Source: Sipunculus nudus (taxonomy: Eukaryota; Annelida; Sipuncula; Golfingiida; Sipunculidae). Taken from it: 64,000 nucleotides of DNA. The notes beneath the pieces are model-generated. The model was not told the DNA's origin. It saw only the letters and a list, made by a program, of their open reading frames with translations, and searched no databases. This document shows positions 17,901-31,219 of this stretch, in pieces. The stretch is from NCBI GenBank assembly GCA_026874595.1, contig CM049317.1:31362901-31426900 (forward strand), written 5' to 3'. The translations under genes and the position numbers were made by a program. How positions within the stretch are numbered: the first letter of the stretch is position 1; each line of letters begins with the position of its first letter.

Positions 17901-20900
17901 TATATCCGTTACACGGGTTACCCCAACGCTTAGGGCATGAAATACTCCAAGAAATGTTTGACACTATTAATATATGCTAAATCCGGGATACGGGTTACCC
18001 TAACCCTTCGGGCATGAAATGTTCCAGTAAGTGTTTGTCACTATTAATATATGATATATCAGGGATACAGGTTACCCTAACCCTTCGGGAATGAAATACT
18101 CCAGTACGTGTTTGTTATTTTTAATATATGCTATATCCAGGTTACGGGTTACCCTAACCCTTCGGGCATGAAATGGTCCAGTAAGTGTTTGTCACTATTA
18201 ATTTCTGCTATATCCGGGATACGGTTTACCCTAACCATTCGGGCATGAAATACTCCAGTTAGTGTTTGTCACTATTAATATATGCTATATGCGGGATAGG
18301 GTTACCCTAACCCTTCGGGCATGACATACTGCTGTAAGTGTTTGTCACTATTCATATATGCTATATCCAGGATAAGGGTTACCCTAACCCTTCGGGCATG
18401 AAATACTCCAGTAAGTGTTTGTCACTATAAATACATGGTGAATGCGGGATTAGTCACTATTCATATATGCTATATCCATGATACGGTTTACCCTAACCCT
18501 TCGGTCATGAAAAACTGCAGTAAATGTTCGTCGCTATTAATATATGCTGTATCCTATACACGGGTTACCCTTACCCTTCTAATATGAAATACTCCTATAA
18601 CTGTTTGACATTATTAATATGTGCTATATCCAGGATACGGGTTACCCTAACCCTTCGATCATGAAATACTCCAGTAAGTGTTTGACACTGAAATATTCAA
18701 GTAAGTATTTGTCACAATTCATACATGCTATATCCGTGACACGGGTTACTCTATCCCTTCGGGCATGAAACACTCCAGTAAGTGTTTGTCACTATTAATA
18801 TATGGTGAATGCGGGATAAGTCACTATCAATATATGCAATATCCGGCATACGAGTTACCCTAACCCTTTTGGCCTGAAATACTCTTGTTAGTGTTTGTCA
18901 CTATTCAGATATGCTATATCCATGATACGGGTTACCCTAACCATTCGGGCATGAAATGCTCCAGTTGTATTTGTCACTATTAAAATATGCTATATCCGTG
19001 ACACGGGTAACCGTAACCCTTGGCGCGTGAAAAGCTCGAGTGTTTGTCGCTATTAATATATGCTTTATCCGGAATACGGGTTACCCTTCGGACATGAAAT
19101 TTTGGAGTGAGTGTTTGTCACTAATAATTTATGGTATATCCTCGATACGGGTTACCCTAACCCTTCGGGCATGACAAACTCCAGTATTTGTCAGTATTAA
19201 TATGCAATATCCGACATACGGGTTACCCTAACTCTTCGGGCATGAAATACTCAGGTAAGTATTTGTCATTATTAATTTGTGCTATATCCGGGATACTGGT
19301 TACCCTAACCCTTCGAGCATGAAATACTCTTGTTAGTGTTTGTCACCATCATATATACTGTATCCATGATACGGATTAGCCTAACCCTTAGGTAATAAAA
19401 ATCTGCAGTAAATGTTTGTCGCTATTAATATATGCTGTCCCTATACCAGGGTTACCCTAGCCCTTCGGATATGAAATACTCCTGTAACTGTTTGTCATTA
19501 TTAATATGTGCTATATCCAGGATACGGGTTACCCTATCCCTTCGGGCATGAAATACTACATTAAGTGTTTGTCACTATTAATCAATCATATATCGGGGAT
19601 ACGGGTTACCAAAACCCTTCGGGCATGAAATACTCAAGTAAGTGTTTGTCACTATCAATATATGCAATATCCGGGATACGGGTTACCCTAACCCTTCGAC
19701 CATGAAATACTCCAGTAAGTGTTAGTCACTATTGATATATGGTATATCCGGGATCTGGTTAGCCAAAACCTTCGGGCATGAAATACTCCAATATTTGTTT
19801 GTCATTAATAATATGGGTTATATCCGGGATACTGGTTACCCTAACCCTTCGGGCATGAAATACCCCTGTAAGTGTTTGTCATTATCAATATATGCTACAC
19901 CCGGGATACTGGTTACCCTAACTCTTCGGGCATGAAATACTCCAGTAAGTGTTTGTCACTAGCAATATATTCAATATCCGGGATACTGGTTACACTAACC
20001 CTTCGGGCATGACATACTCCTGTAAGTGTTTGTCACTATTAATATATGCTACATCCAGGATACGGGTTCCCCTAACACTTCGGGCATGAAGTACTCCTGT
20101 ACGCATTTGTCATTATTAATATATGCTACATCCGGGATACGGGTTACCCTAACTCTTCGGGCAGGAAATACTCCAGTAAGTCCTTGTCACTATTAATATA
20201 TGGTGAATGCGGGATATGGGTTACCCAAACCCTTCGAACCTGAAATACTCAAGTAAGTGTTTGTCACTGAAATAGTCCAGGAAGTGTTTGTCACAATTCA
20301 TATATGCTATATCTGTGACATGGGTTACGCTATCCCTTCTGGCATGAAATACTCAAGTAAGTGTTTGTCAGTATTAATAAATGATATATCCGGGATACGG
20401 GTTACCATAACCCTTCGACCATGAAATACTCCAGTAAGTGTTTGTCTTTATTAATAAATGATATATCCGGGATACGGGTTACCATAAACCTTCGGGCATG
20501 AAATACTCCAGTAAGTGTTTGTCACTATTAATAAATGATATATCCGGGGTACGGGTTACCATAACCCTTAGGGCATGAAAAACTCAAGTAAGTGTTTGTC
20601 ACTATCAATATATGCAATATCCGGGATACGGGTTACTCTAACCCTTCGAACATGAAATAGTCCAGTAAGTGTTTGTCACTATTGATATATGCTATATCCG
20701 GGATACGGGTTAGCCTAAACCTTCGGGCATGAAATACTCCAATAATTGTTTGTCATTATTAATACGTGCTATATTCGGGATACTGGTTACCCTAACCCTT
20801 CGGGCATGAAATACCCCTGTAGGTGTTTGTCATTATCAATATATGCTACACCCGGGATACGGGTCACCCTAACTCTTCGGGCATGAAATACTCCAGTAAG

Positions 20901-23900
20901 TGTTTGTCACTATCAATATATTCAACATCCGGGATACTGGTTACACTAACCCTTCGGGCATGACATACTCCTGTAAGTGTTTGTCACTATTAATATATGC
21001 TACATCCAGGATACGGGTTACTCTAACCCTTCGGGCATGAAGTACTCCTGTACGCATTTGTCATTATTAATATATGTTATATCCAGGTTACGGGTTACCC
21101 TAACTCTTCGGGCATGAAATACTCCAGTAAGTGTTTGTCACTATCAATATATGCAATATCCGGGATACGGGTTACTCTAACCCTTCGAACATGAAATAGT
21201 CCAGTAAGTGTTTGTCACTATTAATATATGCTATATACGGGATACGGGTTACCCTAACCCTTCGACCATGAAATACTTCTGTAAGTGTTTGTCACTATTC
21301 ATATATGCTATATCCGAGATACGGGTTACACTAAGCCTTTAGTCTTGAAAAACTCCAGTAAGTCCTTGTCACTATTAATATATGGTGAATGCGGGAAACG
21401 GGTTACCCAAACCCTTCGAACCTGAAATACTCAAGTTAGTGTTTGTCACTGAAATATTCCAGTAAGTGTTTGTCACAATTCATATATGCTATATCTGTGA
21501 CACGGGTTACGCTATCCCTTCGGGCATGAAATACTCAAGTAGGTGTTTGTCAGTATTAATATATGCAATATCCGGCATACGGGTTACCCTACCCCTTCGG
21601 GCCTGAAATACTCAGGTAAGTGTTTGTCATTATTAATATGTGCTATATTGGGGATACTGGTTACCCTAACCCTTCGGGCATGAAATACTCCTGGTAGTGT
21701 TTGTCACTGTTTGTCTATATTCATATATGCTATATCCATGATACGGGTTACCCTATCCCTTCGGTCATGAAAAACTGCAGTAAATGTTCGTCGCTATTAA
21801 TATATGCTGTATCCTATACACAGGTTACCCTAACCCTTCGGATATGTAATACTCCAGTAAGTGTTTGTCACTATTAATATATGCTATATCCGTGACACGC
21901 GTTACCGTAACCCTTGGGGCGTGCCAAACCCCTGTAAGTGTTTGTCGCTATGAATATATGCAGTATCCAAGATGCGGTTACCCTTACCCTTAGGACATGA
22001 AATACTGGAGTGTTTGTCACTATTAATATATGCTATATCCGGGATACTGGTTACACTAAGCCTTTAGTCTTGAAATACTACAGTAAGTCTTTGTCACTAT
22101 TAATATATGCTATATCAGAGGTACGGTTGACCCTAACCTTCGGGCATGAAATACTCCTGTAAGTGTTTGTCACTGAAATACTCCAGTAAGTGTTTGTCAC
22201 TATTCATATATGCTATATAAGTGACACGGGTTCCCCTAACCCTTTGGACGTGAAAAACTCCAGTAAGTGTTTGTCACAATTAATATATGCTATATCATGG
22301 ATACGGGTTACATTAAGCCATTAGTCTTGAAATACTCCAGTACGTGTTTGTCACTATTAATGTATCCTATATCGGGGATACGGGTTACCCTAACCCTTCG
22401 GGCATGAAAGATTCCAGTAAGTGTTTGTCACTATTAATATCTGCTATATCCGGGATACGGGTTACCCTAACCCTTCGGACAGGAAATACTCCAATAAGTG
22501 TTTGTCACATTTGATATACGTATATCCGGGATACGGAATAGCCGATCCCTTCGGGCATGTAATACTAAAGGAAGTGTTTGCCACTATTAATATATGGTAT
22601 ATCGGGATTCGGGTTACACGAACTTTCGAGCATGAAATACACCAGTAAGTGTTTGTCACTATTAATATATGGTATTACTGGATACGGGTTACCCTAACCC
22701 TTTCTGCATGAAATACTCCATCAGTTATTTGTCAATAATAATATATGCTTTATCCGGGACACGGGTTACTCTAACCCTTTGTGCATGAATACACGAGTAA
22801 GTGTTTGTCACTATTAATATATGGTATATCCGGGATACAGGTTACCCTAACCCTTTCTGCATGAAATAATCCATTAGTTATTTATCATTAATAATATATG
22901 CTATATCCGTTACACGGGTTACCCTAACGCTTAGGGCATGAAATACTCCAAGAAATGTTTGACACTATTAATATATGCTAAATCCGGGATACGGGTTACC
23001 CTAACCCTTCGGGCATGAAATGTTCCAGTAAGTGTTTGTCACTATTAATATATGATATATCAGGGATACAGGTTACCCTAACCCTTCGGGAATGAAATAC
23101 TCCAGTACGTGTTTGTTATTTTTAATATATGCTATATCCAGGTTACGGGTTACCCTAACCCTTCGGGGATGAAATGCTCCAGTAGGTGTTTGTCACTATT
23201 AATTTCTGCTATATCCGGGATACGGTTTACCCTAACCATTCGGGCATGAAATACTCCAGTTAGTGTTTGTCACTATTAATATATGCTATATGCGGGATAG
23301 GGTTACCCTAACCCTTCGGGCATGACATACTGCTGTAAGTGTTTGTCACTATTCATATATGCTATATCCAGGATAAGGGTTACCCTAACCCTTCGGGCAT
23401 GAAATACTCCAGTAAGTGTTTGTCACTATAAATACATGGTGAATGCGGGATTAGTCACTATTCATATATGCTATATCCATGATACGGTTTACCCTAACCC
23501 TTCGGTCATGAAAAACTGCAGTAAATGTTCGTCGCTATTAATATATGCTGTATCCTATACACGGGTTACCCTTACCCTTCTAATATGAAATACTCCTATA
23601 ACTGTTTGTCATTATTAATATGTGCTATATCCAGGATACGGGTTACCCTAACCCTTCGATCATGAAATACTCCAGTAAGTGTTTGACACTGAAATATTCA
23701 AGTAAGTTTTTGTCACAATTCATACATGCTATATCCGTGACACGGGTTACTCTATCCCTTCGGGCATGAAACACTCCAGTAAGTGTTTGTCACTATTAAT
23801 ATATAGTGAATGCGGGAAAAGTCACTATCAATATATGCAATATCCGGCATACGAGTTACCCTAACCCTTTTGGCCTGAAATACTCAGGTAAGGGTTTGTC

Positions 23901-26900
23901 ATTATTAATATGTGCTATATCCGGGATACTGGTTACCCAAACCCTTCGGGCATGAAATACTCTTGTTAGTGTTTGTCACTATTCAGATATGCTATATCCA
24001 TGATACGGGTTACCCTAACCATTCGGGCATGAAATGCTCCAGTTGTATTTGTCACTATTAAAATATGCTATATCCGTGACACGGGTAACCGTAACCCTTG
24101 GCGCGTGAAAAGCTCGAGTGTTTGTCGCTATTAATATATGCTGTATCCGGGATACGGGTTACCCTTCGGACATGAAATTTTGGAGTAAGTGTTTGTCACT
24201 AATAATTTATGGTATATCCTCGATACGGGTTACCCTAACCCTTCGGGCATGACATACTCCAGTATTTGTCAGTATTAATATGCAATATCCGACATACGGG
24301 TTACCCTCACTCTTCGGGCATGAAATACTCAGGTAAGTATTTGTCATTATTAATTTGTGCTATATCCGGGATACTGGTTACCCTAACCCTTCGAGCATGA
24401 AATACTCTTGTTAGTGTTTGTCACCATCATATATACTGTATCCATGATACGGATTAGCCTAACCCTTAGGTAATAAAAATCTGCAGTAAATGTTTGTCGC
24501 TATTAATATATGCTGTCCCTATACCAGGGTTACCCTAGCCCTTCGGATATGAAATACTCCTGTAACTGTTTGTCATTATTAATATGTGCTATATCCAGGA
24601 TACGGGTTACCCTATCCCTTCGGGCATGAAATACTACATTAAGTGTTTGTCATTATTAATCAATTATATATCGGGGATACGGGTTACCATAACCCTTCGG
24701 GCATGAAATACTCAAGTAAGTGTTTGTCACTATTGATATATGGTATATCCGGGATCTGGTTAGCCAAAACCTTCGGGCATGAAATACTCTAATATTTGTT
24801 TGTCATTAATAATATGGGTTATATCCGGGATACTGGTTACCCTAACCCTTCGGGCATGAAATACCCCTGTAAGTGTTTGTCATTATCAATATATGCTACA
24901 CCCGGGATACTGGTTACCCTAACTCTTCGGGCATGAAATACTCCAGTAAGTGTTTGTCACTAGCAATATATTCAATATCCGGGATACTGGTTACACTAAC
25001 CCTTCGGGCATGACATACTCCTGTAAGTGTTTGTCACTATTAATATATGCTACATCCAGGATACGGGTTCCCCTAACACTTCGGGCATGAAGTACTCCTG
25101 TACGCATTTGTCATTATTAATATATGCTACATCCGGGATACGGGTTACCCTAACTCTTCGGGCAGGAAATACTCCAGTAAGTCCTTGTCACTATTAATAT
25201 ATGGTGAATGCGGGATATGGGTTACCCAAACCCTTCGAACCTGAAATACTCAAGTAAGTGTTTGTCACTGAAATAGTCCAGGAAGTGTTTGTCACAATTC
25301 ATATATGCTATATCTGTGACATGGGATACGCTATCCCTTCTGGCATGAAATACTCAAGTAAGTGTTTGTCAGTACTAATAAATGATATATCCGGGATACG
25401 GGTTACCATAACCCTTCGACCATGAAATACTCCAGTAAGTGTTTGTCTTTATTAATAAATGATATATCCGGGATACGGGTTACCATAAACCTTCGGGCAT
25501 GAAATACTCAAGTAAGTGTTTGTCACTATCAATATATGCAATATCCGGGATACGGGTTACCCTAACCCTTCGACCGTGAAATACTCCAGTAAGTGTTTGT
25601 CACTATTGATATATAGTATATATGGGATACGGGTTAGCCTAAACCTTCGGGCATGAAATACTCCAATAATTGTTTGTGATTATTAATATGTGCTATATCC
25701 GGGATACTGGTTACCCTAACCCTTCGGGCATGAAATACCCCTGTAAGTGTTTGTCATTATCAATATATGCTACATCCGGGATACGGGTTACCCTAACTCT
25801 TCGGGCAGGAAATACTCCAGTAAGTGTTTGTCACTATCAATATATTCAATATCCGGGATACTGGTTACACTAACCCTTCGGGCATGACATACTCCTGAAA
25901 GTGTTTGTCACTATTAATATATGCTACATCCAGGATACGGGTTACCCTAACCCTTCGGGGATGAAATGCTCCAGTAAGTGTTTGTCACTATTAATTTCTG
26001 CTATATCCGGGATATGGGTTACCCTAACCCTTCGGGCATGACATACTCAAGTTAGTGTTTGTCACTATTAATATATGCTATATCCGGGAAACGAGTAACC
26101 CTAACCCTTCGACCATGAAATACTGCTGTAAGTGTTAGTCACTATTCATATATGCTATATCCCGGATACGGGTTACACTAAGCCTTTAGTCTTGAAATAT
26201 TCCAGTTAGTCCTTGTCACTATTAATATATGGTGAATGCGGGATATGGGTTACCCAAACCCTTCGAACCTGAAATACTCAAGTAAATGTTTGTAACTGAA
26301 ATATTCCAGTAAGTGTTTGTCACAATTCATATATGCTATATCCGTGACACGGGTTACGCTATCCCTTCGGGCATGAAATACTCAAGTAAGTGTTTGTCAG
26401 TATTAATATACGCAATATCCGGCATACGGGTTACCGTAACCCGTTGGGCCTGAAATACACAGGTAAGTGTTTGTCATTATTAATATGTGCTATATCGTGG
26501 ATACTGGTTACCCTATCCCTTCGGTCATGAAAAACTGCAGTAAATGTTCGTCTCTATTAATATATGCTGTATCCTATACACGGGTTACCCTAACCCTTCG
26601 GATATGTAATACTTCAGTAAGTGTTTGTCACTATTAATATATGATATATCAGAGGTACGGGTTACCCTAACGCTTCCGGCATGAAATATTGCTGTAAGTT
26701 TTTGTCACTCTTCATATATGCTATATCCGTGACACGGGTTACCGTAACCCTTGGGGCGTGCAAAACTCCTGTAAGTGTTTGTCGCTCATAATATATGCAG
26801 TATCCAAGATACGGGTTACCCTTACCCTTCGGACATGAAATACTGGAGTGTTTGTCACTATTAATATATGCTATATCCGGGATACGGGTTACACTAAGCC

Positions 26901-27340
26901 TTTAGTCTTGAAATACTCCAGTAAGTCTCTGTCACTATTGATACATGCTATATCAGAGGTACGGGTGACCCTAACCCTTCGGGCATGAAATACTCCTGTA
27001 AGTGTTTGTCACTGAAATACTCCAGTAAGTGTTTGTCACTATTCATATATGCTATATCCGTGACAGGGGTTACCCTAACCCTTTGGGCGTGAAAAACTCC
27101 AGTAAGTGTTTGTCAGAATTAATATATGCTATATCCGGGATACGGATTACATTAAGCCATTAGTCTTGAAATACTCCAGTACGTGTTTGTCACTATTAAT
27201 GTATCCTATATCGGGGATACGGGTTACCCTCACCCTTCGGGCATGAAAGATTCCAGTAAGTGTTTGTCACTATTAATATATGCTATATCCGGGATACGGG
27301 TTACCCTAACCCTTCGGACATGAAATACTCCAATAAGTGG
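11925..27340 (+). repeat. Main 77-bp satellite array, about 15.4 kb
   Basis: Roughly 200 tandem monomers. In consensus order a monomer reads 'tgtttgtcactattaatata', 'tgctatatccgggatac', 'gggttaccctaaccc', 'ttcgggcatgaaatac', 'tccagtaag'; the counted period is 77 bp (for example 'gtgtttg' at 12,847 and 12,924). Variant monomers recur, including one with 'gtcttgaaatac', one with 'ggggcgtgccaaac' and a short insert 'gtcactgaaatattcca'. Variants repeat in the same order at a spacing of about 5,001 bp (17,420 to 22,421; 19,741 to 24,742; 15,810 to 20,812), so there is higher-order structure of about 65 monomers. An earlier block at 12.4 kb matches 15.8 kb at about 3.36 kb. The array is not coding; frames across it are artefacts. 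Confidence 0.97.
15700..25700 (+). repeat. Higher-order repeat: two successive ~5.0-kb units within the satellite
   Basis: Marker variants in one unit reappear about 5,001-5,002 bp later with very few changes: 'tacccctg' at 15,810/20,812 and 19,861/24,862, the 'gcatgaaagattccag' region at 17,403/22,404, and 'ggtatatccgggatctgg' at 19,741/24,742. Within a unit, monomers are far more different from each other than corresponding monomers are between units. Boundaries are approximate, and local deletions occur, for example a missing monomer block near 24,720. Confidence 0.85.
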
Positions 27341-27344
27341 AGTT

Positions 27345-27975
27345 TGACATCGCAAATTACGGGTGGTTTGCGATACGTCGCATCTCTGCAATCCTTTTAT
27401 GCAACTGATCATGGACCTTGCGAGGCTGTTGCGACGCCTCGCAGCCTTGCGATGCTGTTATGCAACAGGCCCCTGTTTGCTATTTTGCGACAATAATTGC
27501 TACTGCGCATAACGCTTTGAGTGGTCCTGTCCGAGCTGACAGCAACTTGCTACCGCGCAGGTCTGTTTGCTACCGCGCGCATTGCGCATTGCGATCGCAG
27601 CTATATATGTGCTACTTTGCGACAATTAATTGCTACCGCGCATATCGCTTTGAGTGGTCCTGTCCGAGCGACCTCTGGCAGCAAAGACTTGCACTACATC
27701 AACAGAAGCAGATTTTGCAATCATAGCCGCCATGATAGCAATGACAGCCACTTGCTAGCGGGCAGGTCTGACTTGCTACCGCGCACTTTGCACATATGAC
27801 GCGGTCTGTGCATAGGCCACAAGGGTAGCAATGACAGCCATTTGCTACCGCGCAGTTCTGATTTGCTACCGCGCAGTTTGCGCTCAAAAGCCTTTGAACT
27901 CATAATAGTAGCAAGATGAGTGGATGCTGAGTGCGCGTTGTGCCGGGCTATGCGCAATGGTAGCAAAGAATTCAA
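27345..27975. repeat. GC-richer island of short 'gctaccgcgca' repeats
   Basis: It starts immediately after the last satellite monomer. The word 'tgctaccgcgca' or one-off forms recurs at about 27,549, 27,570, 27,633, 27,776, 27,845 and 27,866, and an inverted form ('tgcgcaatggtagcaaa') lies near 27,950-27,967. A 133-bp partial tandem duplication is marked by 'tttgagtggtcctgtccgag' at 27,516 and 27,649. Base composition is clearly richer in G+C than the surroundings. Open frames on both strands reflect composition, not a recognised protein. It abuts the truncated 3' end of the transposase pseudogene. Confidence 0.75.
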
Positions 27976-27977
27976 AA

Positions 27978-28075
27978 CTAGTCTGAAAAACCGACAGTTC
28001 CCCGCATATATGGTGCAGACCTCTGTAGCTGGATCTCCGACTTTGTGACAAGACAACATAGACAAGGATAGGAGC
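27978..28075 (-). pseudogene. Exon 6 fragment: CxxC motif, then truncation
   Basis: Acceptor ATTCCAG at 28,076-28,082. In the correct phase it reads CSYPCLCCLVTKSEIQLQ and then runs into TAG at 27,980-27,978, close to where the GC-rich short repeats begin. The usual C-terminal half of such transposases, including a third acidic residue, is absent. Confidence 0.7.
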
Positions 28076-28081
28076 CTGGAA

Positions 28082-28192
28082 TAATAAGTATTATAAAGTA
28101 TACTTGTTAGAATGTGCACCTATGCATAATTTAATAAGCTCATGCTTAGGTATTTTCAAAATGACGAAAGTAATAAAGAAAAATATCCTTAC
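28082..28192 (-). other. Intron 5 of the transposase pseudogene
   Basis: AT-rich sequence bounded by GTAAGG and ATTCCAG. The other introns are 29,355-29,495, 28,950-29,058, 28,607-28,724 and 28,270-28,360. All are about 90-140 bp, short and AT-rich. Confidence 0.7.
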
Positions 28193-28269
28193 ATTGATGT
28201 TCTGACAATCCATACACCTTTGACAAAAAGTCATAGTCACCATAAAGGAATAGCTGGGTGCTTTTCCCT
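28193..28269 (-). pseudogene. Exon 5: second catalytic-type motif (GDYDFLSKVYGLS)
   Basis: A 77-bp exon between a TTTTCAG acceptor and a T|GTAAGG donor. It encodes LFLYGDYDFLSKVYGLSEHQ. The order GDY-x-FL..YGLS, followed in the next exon by PCLxC, is characteristic of this transposase-like family. The second Asp would be the counterpart of a DDE catalytic residue. Confidence 0.75.
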
Positions 28270-28360
28270 CTGAAAATATATAGATTTATTATAGATGTAT
28301 TTAGTTAATAAAAATAATATAAACGTGTATTCAGTAAGAAATGTAAATTAAATTACTCAC

Positions 28361-28606
28361 TTCCATTTCATATTTGACAGTTCCTGTAGATCACTCCGAA
28401 TCATTCCTATTGCTTGTTGCATATTCTCTGTGAAATCTTTTGCCTCGAAACAGGCCACAGTGATTGTGTTGTGCTTGGCATTTGGTTCTTCTGTATTTAA
28501 CACCTGCACAAAGAATTTCATTGAGCCTCCACCATGATCTCCTCCAAACTTTATCCATATTTCATCCTCTGGTATTGACCCATTCCTCCATGTAAGTGAG
28601 TTGTTC
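28361..28606 (-). pseudogene. Exon 4: first catalytic-type motif (KFGGDHGGGS)
   Basis: Acceptor TTGCAG, donor AA|GTGAGT. It encodes WIKFGGDHGGGSMKFFVQVL and then about 50 residues. The acidic residue in GGD followed by glycines lies where a DDE/RNase-H-type transposase would place its first catalytic Asp. Similar (W)(I/L)KxGGD(H/K)GGGS strings occur in many uncharacterised invertebrate proteins I know of. Equivalence to Asp600 of RAG1 is a hypothesis. Confidence 0.7.
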
Positions 28607-28724
28607 CTGCAATAAATTTTTAGAAGCAATGTTATGAAAGAACATGACAAAAACTGTAAAGTTAAAGAATGAAATATATAATCAATTCGTATAAAAGTCA
28701 CACTTTACATTATTCACTACCTAC

Positions 28725-28949
28725 TTTTCATATTTATCAAGGAGCTGCATGATAAATCCTGGAATGTCCTTGATATAGGCAAACATAACATCTCTTTGCA
28801 CCAAGCCTTTCTGTGAGCTGTCAGTAGCCTTTTACTCTCGTACACACATTTTTACCATCTTGCCCTGGAGATAGTCACCAAGGGTGTACTTCTGGGCTGT
28901 ACGCTCTTTTCTTTCGCTTTCAAAATTGACACCAACATATTTGAGCAGC
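28725..28949 (-). pseudogene. Exon 3: pre-core segment with an in-frame stop
   Basis: Acceptor TTTCAG and donor AA|GTAGGT keep phase 2 on both sides. The segment reads LLKYVGVNFESERKERTAQK, then TLGDYLQGKMVKMCVRE, then TAA (28,834-28,832), and continues in the same frame to IPGFIMQLLDKYEK. Frame continuity on both sides of the stop indicates a single nonsense change rather than a real end. Confidence 0.75.
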
Positions 28950-29058
28950 CTGAAAGACAATGAATTTATTAGTTGCAAATAATTCAATAATTTAATAAAT
29001 ACATATACACAACAGAATACACAATATAATACAAAAATAGGACGAAAAATAATAGTAC

Positions 29059-29354
29059 CTTTTCTGTTTTCTCAACTGTCCCCATGTTAGTCCTACATGC
29101 GATTTCATTGCTATGCTGGTAAACTGGTTAATTTCCACTCTAGATGGCATGCCGGCCTTGTCAAGTATTTCATCTTGGGATGATCTTGTAAGTGATTTCA
29201 GCTCGGTAGCATGTTGAATTCTATAGGATTTCTTGTCTTTCCCAGCCATGACATGTCGAAGATGAGCAATTGCTGTAGCTCGTTTAATCTTCAGGTATTT
29301 AGATGCCTGTACTGATGTTTTTTTGGCTTGGCGCATTTTCATCATAACCAGAGG
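29059..29354 (-). pseudogene. Exon 2: basic, Lys/Arg-rich segment
   Basis: Acceptor TTACAG just upstream, phase 0; donor AG|GTACTA. It encodes a basic segment of about 98 residues (KKTSVQASKYLKIKRATAIA... and later MPSRVEINQFTSIAMKSHVG) without cysteine motifs. In the order of the gene it sits between the zinc-binding region and the catalytic-core exons, so a DNA-binding or linker role is plausible but inferred. No stop lies within it. Confidence 0.75.
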
Positions 29355-29495
29355 CTGTAAGTAATAGAAGTAGTGATTACTAGTGATTTTTTTAAATTAC
29401 TTTTATTATTGTCTAGGAATGTTATCATTAACTTTATGATGAATACGAGATATTTAAATTCATGAACTAAAATCATATAGTGTTTTTATGCTTAC

Positions 29496-30639
29496 CTGTC
29501 CTCTTGAATTCTTACATCTTACTGTCCCTTCCACTGGTGCAAACTTCAGCATACGCCTTGTCAATTTTGTATATAGTTTCTCTTCGGATGAGATCGGTGC
29601 TTCAGTTTCTGGCTTTCTCCATGTGGTCTCAACAGTTTCAGGCATAATACTAGGAGAAGTCTGAATCTCTACTGATGAAAAAATCTTTGCTGTACTAGTT
29701 ATTTTGGGCAAAAAGGGTGTTGAGAAGGTACCGGAAGATGACATTTGTTCTTGGCTAGAGATTTCTGCAGATTCTGAATCAGTAATAGTCATTTCCCCCA
29801 TTCCCTCTCCCAATAAGCTGCTGCTTGAACAGTTATGTTTGTGTATCTCCCCGAGTGAAGCCACTTTAGAACATGTTTTACACTGAACATTTAAGAGTGC
29901 TAATTGATCACGAAACCTCTTGTCTACTTTCATTACTGATAGAAAGGTGACCTGTGTATAACAGGTTTGGCAGGTGATAGTGTTGGATAGATCTGCTTTA
30001 AACCTCTGACTAAGACAAGTAGCACAGACGTATTGGTCACACTGTGTTTTAACAGAATTGAAACTGGATATATTTTCACATATTACACAAATATTCATTT
30101 TTCTGTGGGTATCATTTATTTCGTCAATTTTAAAGCAGCTCATATCTGTGTCATAAGGACCAGTTTCACTGGAGAAGTCAAATATATCAAGCATTGTATG
30201 GTTGAACTGCAGATTATCTGGAATAATTTTGGTCGACCCTTTTTAGGATTTTTCGACATCCAGGTTGTGTTTCCTGCCTGTATGAGTGACAGGCAAAACA
30301 TTCCAAAAGTGTTGCATTTCTCCTATGGGACTTCCACTGCATATTGATTGACTGTGCCCTTTCTTTTTCAATTTTCAACAAATCAACATATTTATCAGAT
30401 GAATTTCTTTTCAAATTAAACTGCTTTAGATAACATCTGTCACAGAGCTTTGTAGGATGGATATCTGTAATGTCTGTTCCAATATCTATGCCATATGTTT
30501 CAGTAATTCTTTCTTTACTGTCTCTACATAGAAGAGCTTGATGTCAAGTTTTCTTAGCTTTTGTTTGGGCCCTTTTACCACATGTACAGCACAACTGTGC
30601 CAGACTCTGTCTATGAAATTCAAATGAATGTGACATCAT
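29496..30639 (-). pseudogene. Exon 1: RAG1-like N-terminal zinc region, RING and zinc finger
   Basis: From the ATG at 30,639, a CxxC pair (C17, C20) lies before an in-frame TGA at codon 32. Then come IHPTKLCDRC (H61 to C69) and W102-x2-H105..C114-x2-C117. In vertebrate RAG1 the equivalents are CRIC, IHPTEFCHNC and W-x2-H..CDIC in the same order. After the frameshift, counting from the Met at 30,194, the RING reads C36-x2-C39-x12-C52-x4-C57-x2-C60-x14-C75-x2-C78, with Gln where RAG1 has the RING histidine. The following C105-x2-C108..H118-x-H120-x-C122 aligns with the RAG1 zinc finger next to its RING. A Ser/Thr-rich linker precedes the GTAAGC donor at 29,495. The shift probably lies in the run of five A (coding strand) near 30,240-30,244. 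Confidence 0.88.
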
Positions 30640-31219
30640 GGGTCACATGTACTAACGTCATAAAGATAAAATATCCAGTTAATACATACTCTCAGGAAGG
30701 AATAATATTGGTTCATATAATAGTAACATTTCAGATTTCTGTGAGGTTTACTATTTATATTAAAAAACATTTTCCAGTCATCAAGCCAGTATACAAAAAT
30801 TTAATTCTTAATCATTCATATTAATTTATATTAATTTTAATTATTGCTGGTATGGGATTTAATGGTTAAGTTCTTTAATTATGATTTAAATAAGTGTTTC
30901 AGTTCGTTATTGTTAAATTCAGCGAGGGGAAGAAATGGTTTACAATGGTTAATACGTGTGTCCACGAAGGGAAAGGCCGATGGAAAGGCTTTAATAGGGC
31001 TTGGCCTCTGTTCCTAAATTGTCCCACATCATCAATGTACATTTGAATAACTTTTAAAATGTTACCTCCATTCTTAACAAAACATTGTAAATAAAACATA
31101 AATTTTCGTCATTATACAGTTTTAACTGTTTATAGTGAAAGTACATTCTAAGTATTTAATGTCAGACTTACATCTATTGACATCACAGAAACTCAAATCT
31201 ACAACATCAAAAGCGGATC
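30640..31219. other. 5' flank of the transposase pseudogene
   Basis: AT-rich sequence between the RAG1-like start codon and the dispersed repeat beginning at about 31,220. No promoter or terminal inverted repeat is recognised. Confidence 0.4.

Follow-up and report, generated by a model that had tools for sequence, protein, structure and literature searches.

Which kind of gene in Sipunculus nudus opens with cysteine and histidine pairs arranged as in the N-terminus of RAG1, the enzyme underlying antibody diversity? The question is raised by the window, i.e. the whole stretch of 64,000 nucleotides that was analysed (contig CM049317.1, positions 31,362,901 to 31,426,900). An earlier note, made from the letters alone, had described a RAG1-like zinc region followed by a RING in a transposon-like gene and had taken it as evidence that the RAG1 N-terminus circulated in invertebrate transposons.

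The zinc-binding front in exon 1

The motifs originally listed (CxxC, IHPTxxCxxC, WxxH..CxxC, a RING and an adjacent finger) are all present on the minus strand in the place and order described. Reading of the minus-strand frame assigns them to a single exon, 30639-29496, that is closed by a GT donor:

29496..30639, minus strand: exon 1, coding for the RAG1 N-terminus-like zinc domain (Chapa), then the RING and the CxxC..HxC finger next to it (PF12560, 4.5e-5)
30591-30580, minus strand: CxxC (frame reading)
30459-30433, minus strand: H-P-T..CxxC (frame reading)
30336-30289, minus strand: WxxH..CxxC (frame reading)
29961..30089, minus strand: degenerate RING finger (frame reading and family alignment)
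29829..29882, minus strand: CxxC..HxC zinc finger 3' of the RING (frame reading and family alignment)
30544..30546, minus strand: in-frame TGA stop within the Chapa domain (frame reading)
about 30240..30289, minus strand: shift of the reading frame by one or more indels (frame reading)
30033..30035, minus strand: Gln codon at the position of a RING zinc-ligand His (family alignment)

Owing to the TGA and the frame shift, the reading frame of exon 1 is not open in the window copy. The string singled out for its closeness to RAG1 had been quoted with incorrect spacing; when IDIGTDITDIHPTKLCDRC from the window is set against IDVKADVDSIHPTEFCHDC from RAG1, 9 of 19 residues are identical. The RING and the neighbouring finger were located as announced, but the RING carries Gln at a ligand position occupied by His in all six other family sequences aligned, and no RING family of Pfam reaches its cut-off in the RING half of the window copy (best zf-RING_10, E=1).

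For the N-terminal zinc domain (Chapa) the exon 1 piece 30543-30217 matches Pfam family PF12560 (RAG1_imp_bd) with E=4.5e-5 and 23.6 bits, just 0.3 bits above the cut-off of 23.3, and the runner-up, a cysteine-rich cytochrome family, stays under its own cut-off (0.0021). Three of three relatives score under the PF12560 cut-off (L044, 18.3; L048, 22.9; L017, which lacks its start, 20.8). A genome-wide scan with the same family yielded 13 matches, 11 of which adjoin RAG1-core matches and two DUF1280 matches as judged from coordinates; the window is absent from these 13, and none of 14 control genomes matched, so that the scan has no positive control. Searched against 177,635 distinct PDB sequences, a profile of the Chapa domain (A2), built from four family sequences including the window, retrieved three that belong to RAG1 (2.7e-5 to 3.3e-5), the next match being an unrelated protein at 0.18. 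Alignment by hhalign of the window-family Chapa domain with the Chapa part of three RAG1-like proteins from the same genome gave 95.7% and 1e-8.

The RING profile (A3, seven sequences) ranked RNF4, BRCA1 and TRAF6 all above RAG1 (1rmd), which was found at rank 20 with 5.1e-5; the best single RNF4 RING reached 9.9e-7 and the two-RING RNF4 chain 1.8e-12. The RAG1 match spans the RING and the next finger, and the same is true for the matches to TRAF6 and RNF125. This ranking is what could be expected if the front were that of a generic RING protein, or a chance series of cysteine pairs, unrelated to RAG1. The relative P0001, whose best match is BRCA1, can be cited in favor of the same explanation. 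This protein was the one relative recovered by a protein search that took the read-through as query and scored 6,556 candidates (449 aa, 34% identity, 65% query coverage); it lacks the first CxxC and the HPxxxC part and stops ahead of the DUF1280 part. Since the domain preceding the RING matches RAG1 alone significantly, we regard an unrelated origin as highly improbable. The proposed RAG1-likeness, for which comparison with generic RING proteins had been named beforehand as the check, consequently holds for one half of the front: the Pfam, PDB and hhalign results support a Chapa domain that is specifically RAG1-like, while the RING, with RAG1 at rank 20, is no nearer to RAG1 than to ordinary RINGs.

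Downstream exons and the state of the window copy

Naming the gene transposon-like proved appropriate in that the DUF1280 core and the ends of the relatives indicate a mobile element; the transposase exons past exon 1 had, however, been missed. The window contains only four stop-to-stop open reading frames of at least 130 aa. The transposase remnant consists of six exons on the minus strand, from 30639 to about 28014, with AG/GT borders for exons 2-6:

29059..29354, minus strand: exon 2 (AG/GT borders; tblastn from the intronless relative L017)
28725..28949, minus strand: exon 3, with an in-frame TAA at 28834-28832 (frame reading, L017 tblastn)
28361..28606, minus strand: exon 4, DUF1280 (Chapaev transposase) with the GGDHGGGS motif (PF06918, 4.4e-14, 53.1 bits)
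28193..28269, minus strand: exon 5 with the YGDYDFL motif (frame reading, L017 tblastn)
28014..28075, minus strand: exon 6, cut off where homology to the family copies stops (genome DNA comparison)
28014..30851, minus strand: entire remaining transposon fragment (genome DNA comparison)

In tblastn the exons of the window are collinear with residues 5-647 of the 1014-residue L017, an intronless relative with its start missing and one internal TGA. L017 contains GGDHGGGS, HGDY and HGEQ, judged by eye to be candidate motifs of the DDE triad, the final acidic position of which is putative; the window lacks the C-terminal third. Residues of L017 past 647 found no tblastn match anywhere in the 64 kb at E up to 1. 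On this result it was rejected that the missing C-terminus might lie displaced within the window, such as past the 77-bp satellite. A genome scan with PF06918 gave 32 matches, with the window among them, and the RAG1 core family PF12940 had no match in the six in-frame pieces of the window that were scanned. The front thus sits with a Chapaev core in one gene and is more than a roaming RAG1 front end.

The window copy starts at 30851 and ends at about 28014, where other sequence takes over. About 640 bp of the 5' end including the terminal inverted repeat (TIR) have been lost, as have the last third of the transposase and the 3' end. No TIR is present in the window copy itself, the homology limits at 30851 and about 28014 marking truncation at both ends, and no target-site duplication (TSD) is retained. 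The window copy is a dead, doubly truncated internal fragment because it combines the in-frame TGA, the frameshift, the TAA and the lost RING His with the absence of both ends and of the catalytic C-terminus.

These lesions also bear on the idea that a Chapaev transposase was domesticated to become a host gene, in which Chapa and RING would have been kept for a cell function. RAG1 itself is domesticated and provides a precedent, and the multi-exon structure would suit such a gene. The stop codons, the frameshift, the lost zinc ligand and the missing C-terminus argue against it, and stops also occur in many further family stretches found in the genome search with the RING half. Domestication thus has a barely appreciable probability.

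On the far side of the 3' truncation, a 77-bp satellite forms a long array that occupies at least about 20000-27400 of the window. Another repeat, containing GCGCGGTAGCAA-like units, fills 27480-28013 and begins at the transposon cut; the stretch adjoining this cut recurs at no fewer than 15 other places in the genome.

Related copies and RAGL elements in the same genome

The 260 residues encoded by the RING half of exon 1 served as query against the 1.43-Gb genome (153 contigs), and at least 65 matching stretches including the window were obtained, a number that is a lower bound on matches and in which several stretches are pieces of one copy. Sixteen of the 64 other stretches extend over 240 or more residues of this query and have no internal stop. 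Among the matches listed, copies on contigs C13 and C11 are 92% identical to the window DNA over the aligned parts. A copy of the window's subfamily on C13 (L050:730) starts with CACAGCAGTTAC, and homology to several sisters begins at this point. The search for intact copies that had been recommended led to three full-length relatives, all better preserved than the window copy:

C7:71839256-71845342: full copy of a related subfamily, 6087 bp, TSD AGAT
C12:5606976-5613055: full copy of a related subfamily, 6080 bp, TSD TGCT
C8:60254199-60260323: full copy of a related subfamily, 6125 bp, TSD GGGG

Their mutual identity amounts to 98.6-99.3%, and 12-bp inverted repeats CACAGCAGTTAC at both ends together with 4-bp duplications were present in all three copies examined to both ends. 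The pair L044/L046 showed no TIR at the ends of its alignment. With regard to the circulation of the RAG1 N-terminus in transposons, the window copy testifies to past movement alone, recent movement being indicated by the near-identical relatives.

Other family members differ in their build. L052 and L053 (C11:66616091-66617139 and C11:66624766-66625815), which lie about 8.7 kb apart and are 98% identical, derive from the window's element by deletion and lack the middle of the gene. L014, L017, L018 and L025 form a Chapaev-type subfamily with a transposase of roughly 1000 residues devoid of the introns of the window family; L014, L017 and L018 share 98-99% identity pairwise. Among genome contigs from bacteria and archaea, a pattern was matched by 34 stretches, none of which was confirmed as a relative.

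The same genome harbors RAG1-like/RAG2-like (RAGL) elements. Scanning with PF12940 gave 34 matches, some of them pieces of one copy. One RAGL transposon could be delimited completely:

C10:30485511-30497730: RAGL transposon, 12,220 bp, ends CACATAC..GTAAGTG, 5-bp TSD ACACA

It covers the loci L078, L075, L072, L004 and L073 and contains a stop-free RAG1-like frame of 958 residues with PF12560, RING, PF12940 and a CxxCx3GHx4C tail. Convergent to it runs a stop-free RAG2-like Kelch-PHD frame of 470 residues. This frame scores 25.0 bits with PF03089, for which the cut-off is 21, and its match to the RAG2L chain in 6b40 reaches 7.9e-20. A genome-wide scan with PF03089 gave no match in this genome or in the control genomes and must be considered insensitive in view of the 25.0 bits of that very frame. 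A second RAGL copy resides on C7 (TSD GGATG), is about 99% identical to that on C10 over the stretches compared and has one TAA in its RAG1-like match. A further stop-free RAG1-like frame of 997 aa with Chapa, RING and RAG1 core, L006 (C2:3873420-3876164), has clearly diverged from the C10 copy.

A tree comparison with RAG1 and RAG1-like proteins, as had been suggested, was carried out for the Chapa domain (10 rows) and the RING (11 rows) with IQ-TREE (LG+G4, 1000 ultrafast bootstraps), mouse RAG1 being represented by residues 115-251 and 285-375 only. The window family was set apart: the RAG1-like rows and mouse RAG1 are split from the window and all other family rows with 96% (Chapa) and 95% (RING). 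Either tree places P0001 beside the RAG1 branch (65% and 93%). These values are to be read in light of long branches, short alignments, the absence of the first CxxC from some rows and the position of P0001, a sequence that ends ahead of the core.

Class of the element and age of its architecture

Chapaev elements are characterized by TSDs of 3-4 bp and CAC..GTG ends (as described in PMC4079192), and DUF1280 has been equated with Chapaev transposases in one clade with RAG1 (as stated in PMC3985635). DUF1280 is found in exon 4 of the window, and CAC..GTG TIRs and a 4-bp TSD in the relatives. Since PF12560 (exon 1) and PF06918 (exon 4) share one gene and the relatives have these ends and duplications, 30851-28014 of the window is, with high probability, an internal piece, now inactive, of a Chapaev-superfamily DNA transposon of the cut-and-paste kind and the Chapa+RING type, a class assignment that depends on the relatives because the window copy has neither TIR nor TSD of its own.

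We also considered a fragment of a RAGL transposon of the ProtoRAG/TransibSU type, in which a true RAG1-like gene containing the RAG1 core is accompanied by a RAG2-like partner. The identical order of Chapa and RING, the presence of RAGL elements in the same genome and the placement of the family relative P0001 beside the RAG1 branch are all compatible with this possibility. However, the exons past the RING match DUF1280 and not PF12940, the relatives have 4-bp TSDs and CACAGCAGTTAC ends (3/3) as opposed to CACATAC..GTAAGTG and 5-bp TSDs in the RAGL elements of this genome, and both trees part the window family from the RAG1-like rows. Derivation from a RAGL transposon is therefore very unlikely; membership of the window in the RAG1-core group was rejected on the grounds of the DUF1280 match, the 4-bp TSDs, the CACAGCAGTTAC ends and the trees. 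Compared with RAGL/ProtoRAG/TransibSU elements and vertebrate RAG1, the Chapaev-type gene of the window is alike in the Chapa-RING order and in having an RNase H-like core, which is distantly similar to theirs.

In better-preserved relatives a single gene encodes a transposase composed of Chapa, RING plus zinc finger, and an RNase H-like DUF1280 core. The latter, as a DDE cut-and-paste enzyme, would cut at the CAC/GTG ends and insert with a 4-bp stagger. By analogy with RAG1, the Chapa/RING front may dimerise, bind partners or DNA, or act as a ubiquitin ligase. The window copy is capable of none of these activities.

The combination of Chapa followed by RING has been reported for two Chapaev subgroups, for which a common ancestor was proposed (Kapitonov and Koonin 2015, PMC4411706). 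The order Chapa, RING, Chapaev/DUF1280 core described there is the same as in the window gene, and the 4-bp TSD and CAC..GTG ends of Chapaev recur in the window's relatives, although the window copy itself is a dead fragment. N-RAG-TP from Aplysia californica (Panchin and Moroz 2008) is likewise presented as a mobile element with a RAG1 N-terminus-like protein (PMC8355894, PMC2996935, PMC13337447). According to PMC8355894, N-RAG-TP consists wholly of RAG1 N-terminal-like sequence, whereas the window gene carries a transposase core. N-RAG-TP most likely belongs to the Chapa+RING Chapaev type. As far as these sources go, the Chapa+RING front in Chapaev has been known since 2015 (PMC4411706) and N-RAG-TP since 2008, and the window family is a further member.

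Some reviews derive RAG1 from Transib plus a separate N-RAG-TP that gave only the N-terminal part (as outlined in PMC8355894 and PMC13337447). On another reading, for which we see the balance as even, the genome of S. nudus contains two recently mobile lineages, one with Chapa+RING on DUF1280 and the other with the same front on a RAG1 core beside a RAG2-like partner. This would fit a single ancestral Chapa-RING-RNase H transposase and not a late N-RAG-TP-Transib fusion. The shared front looks old and not recently swapped because the fronts of the two lineages form separate groups in our small trees. The finding of a RAG1-like front and a Chapaev transposase in one gene of a family with recently moved members agrees with the Chapaev argument of Kapitonov and Koonin, and a genome with both lineages would offer good ground for testing the role of the front in transposition and the age of the architecture. 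RAG1-like proteins with a RING-type ZDD are also known from molluscs (as reported in PMC7204232).
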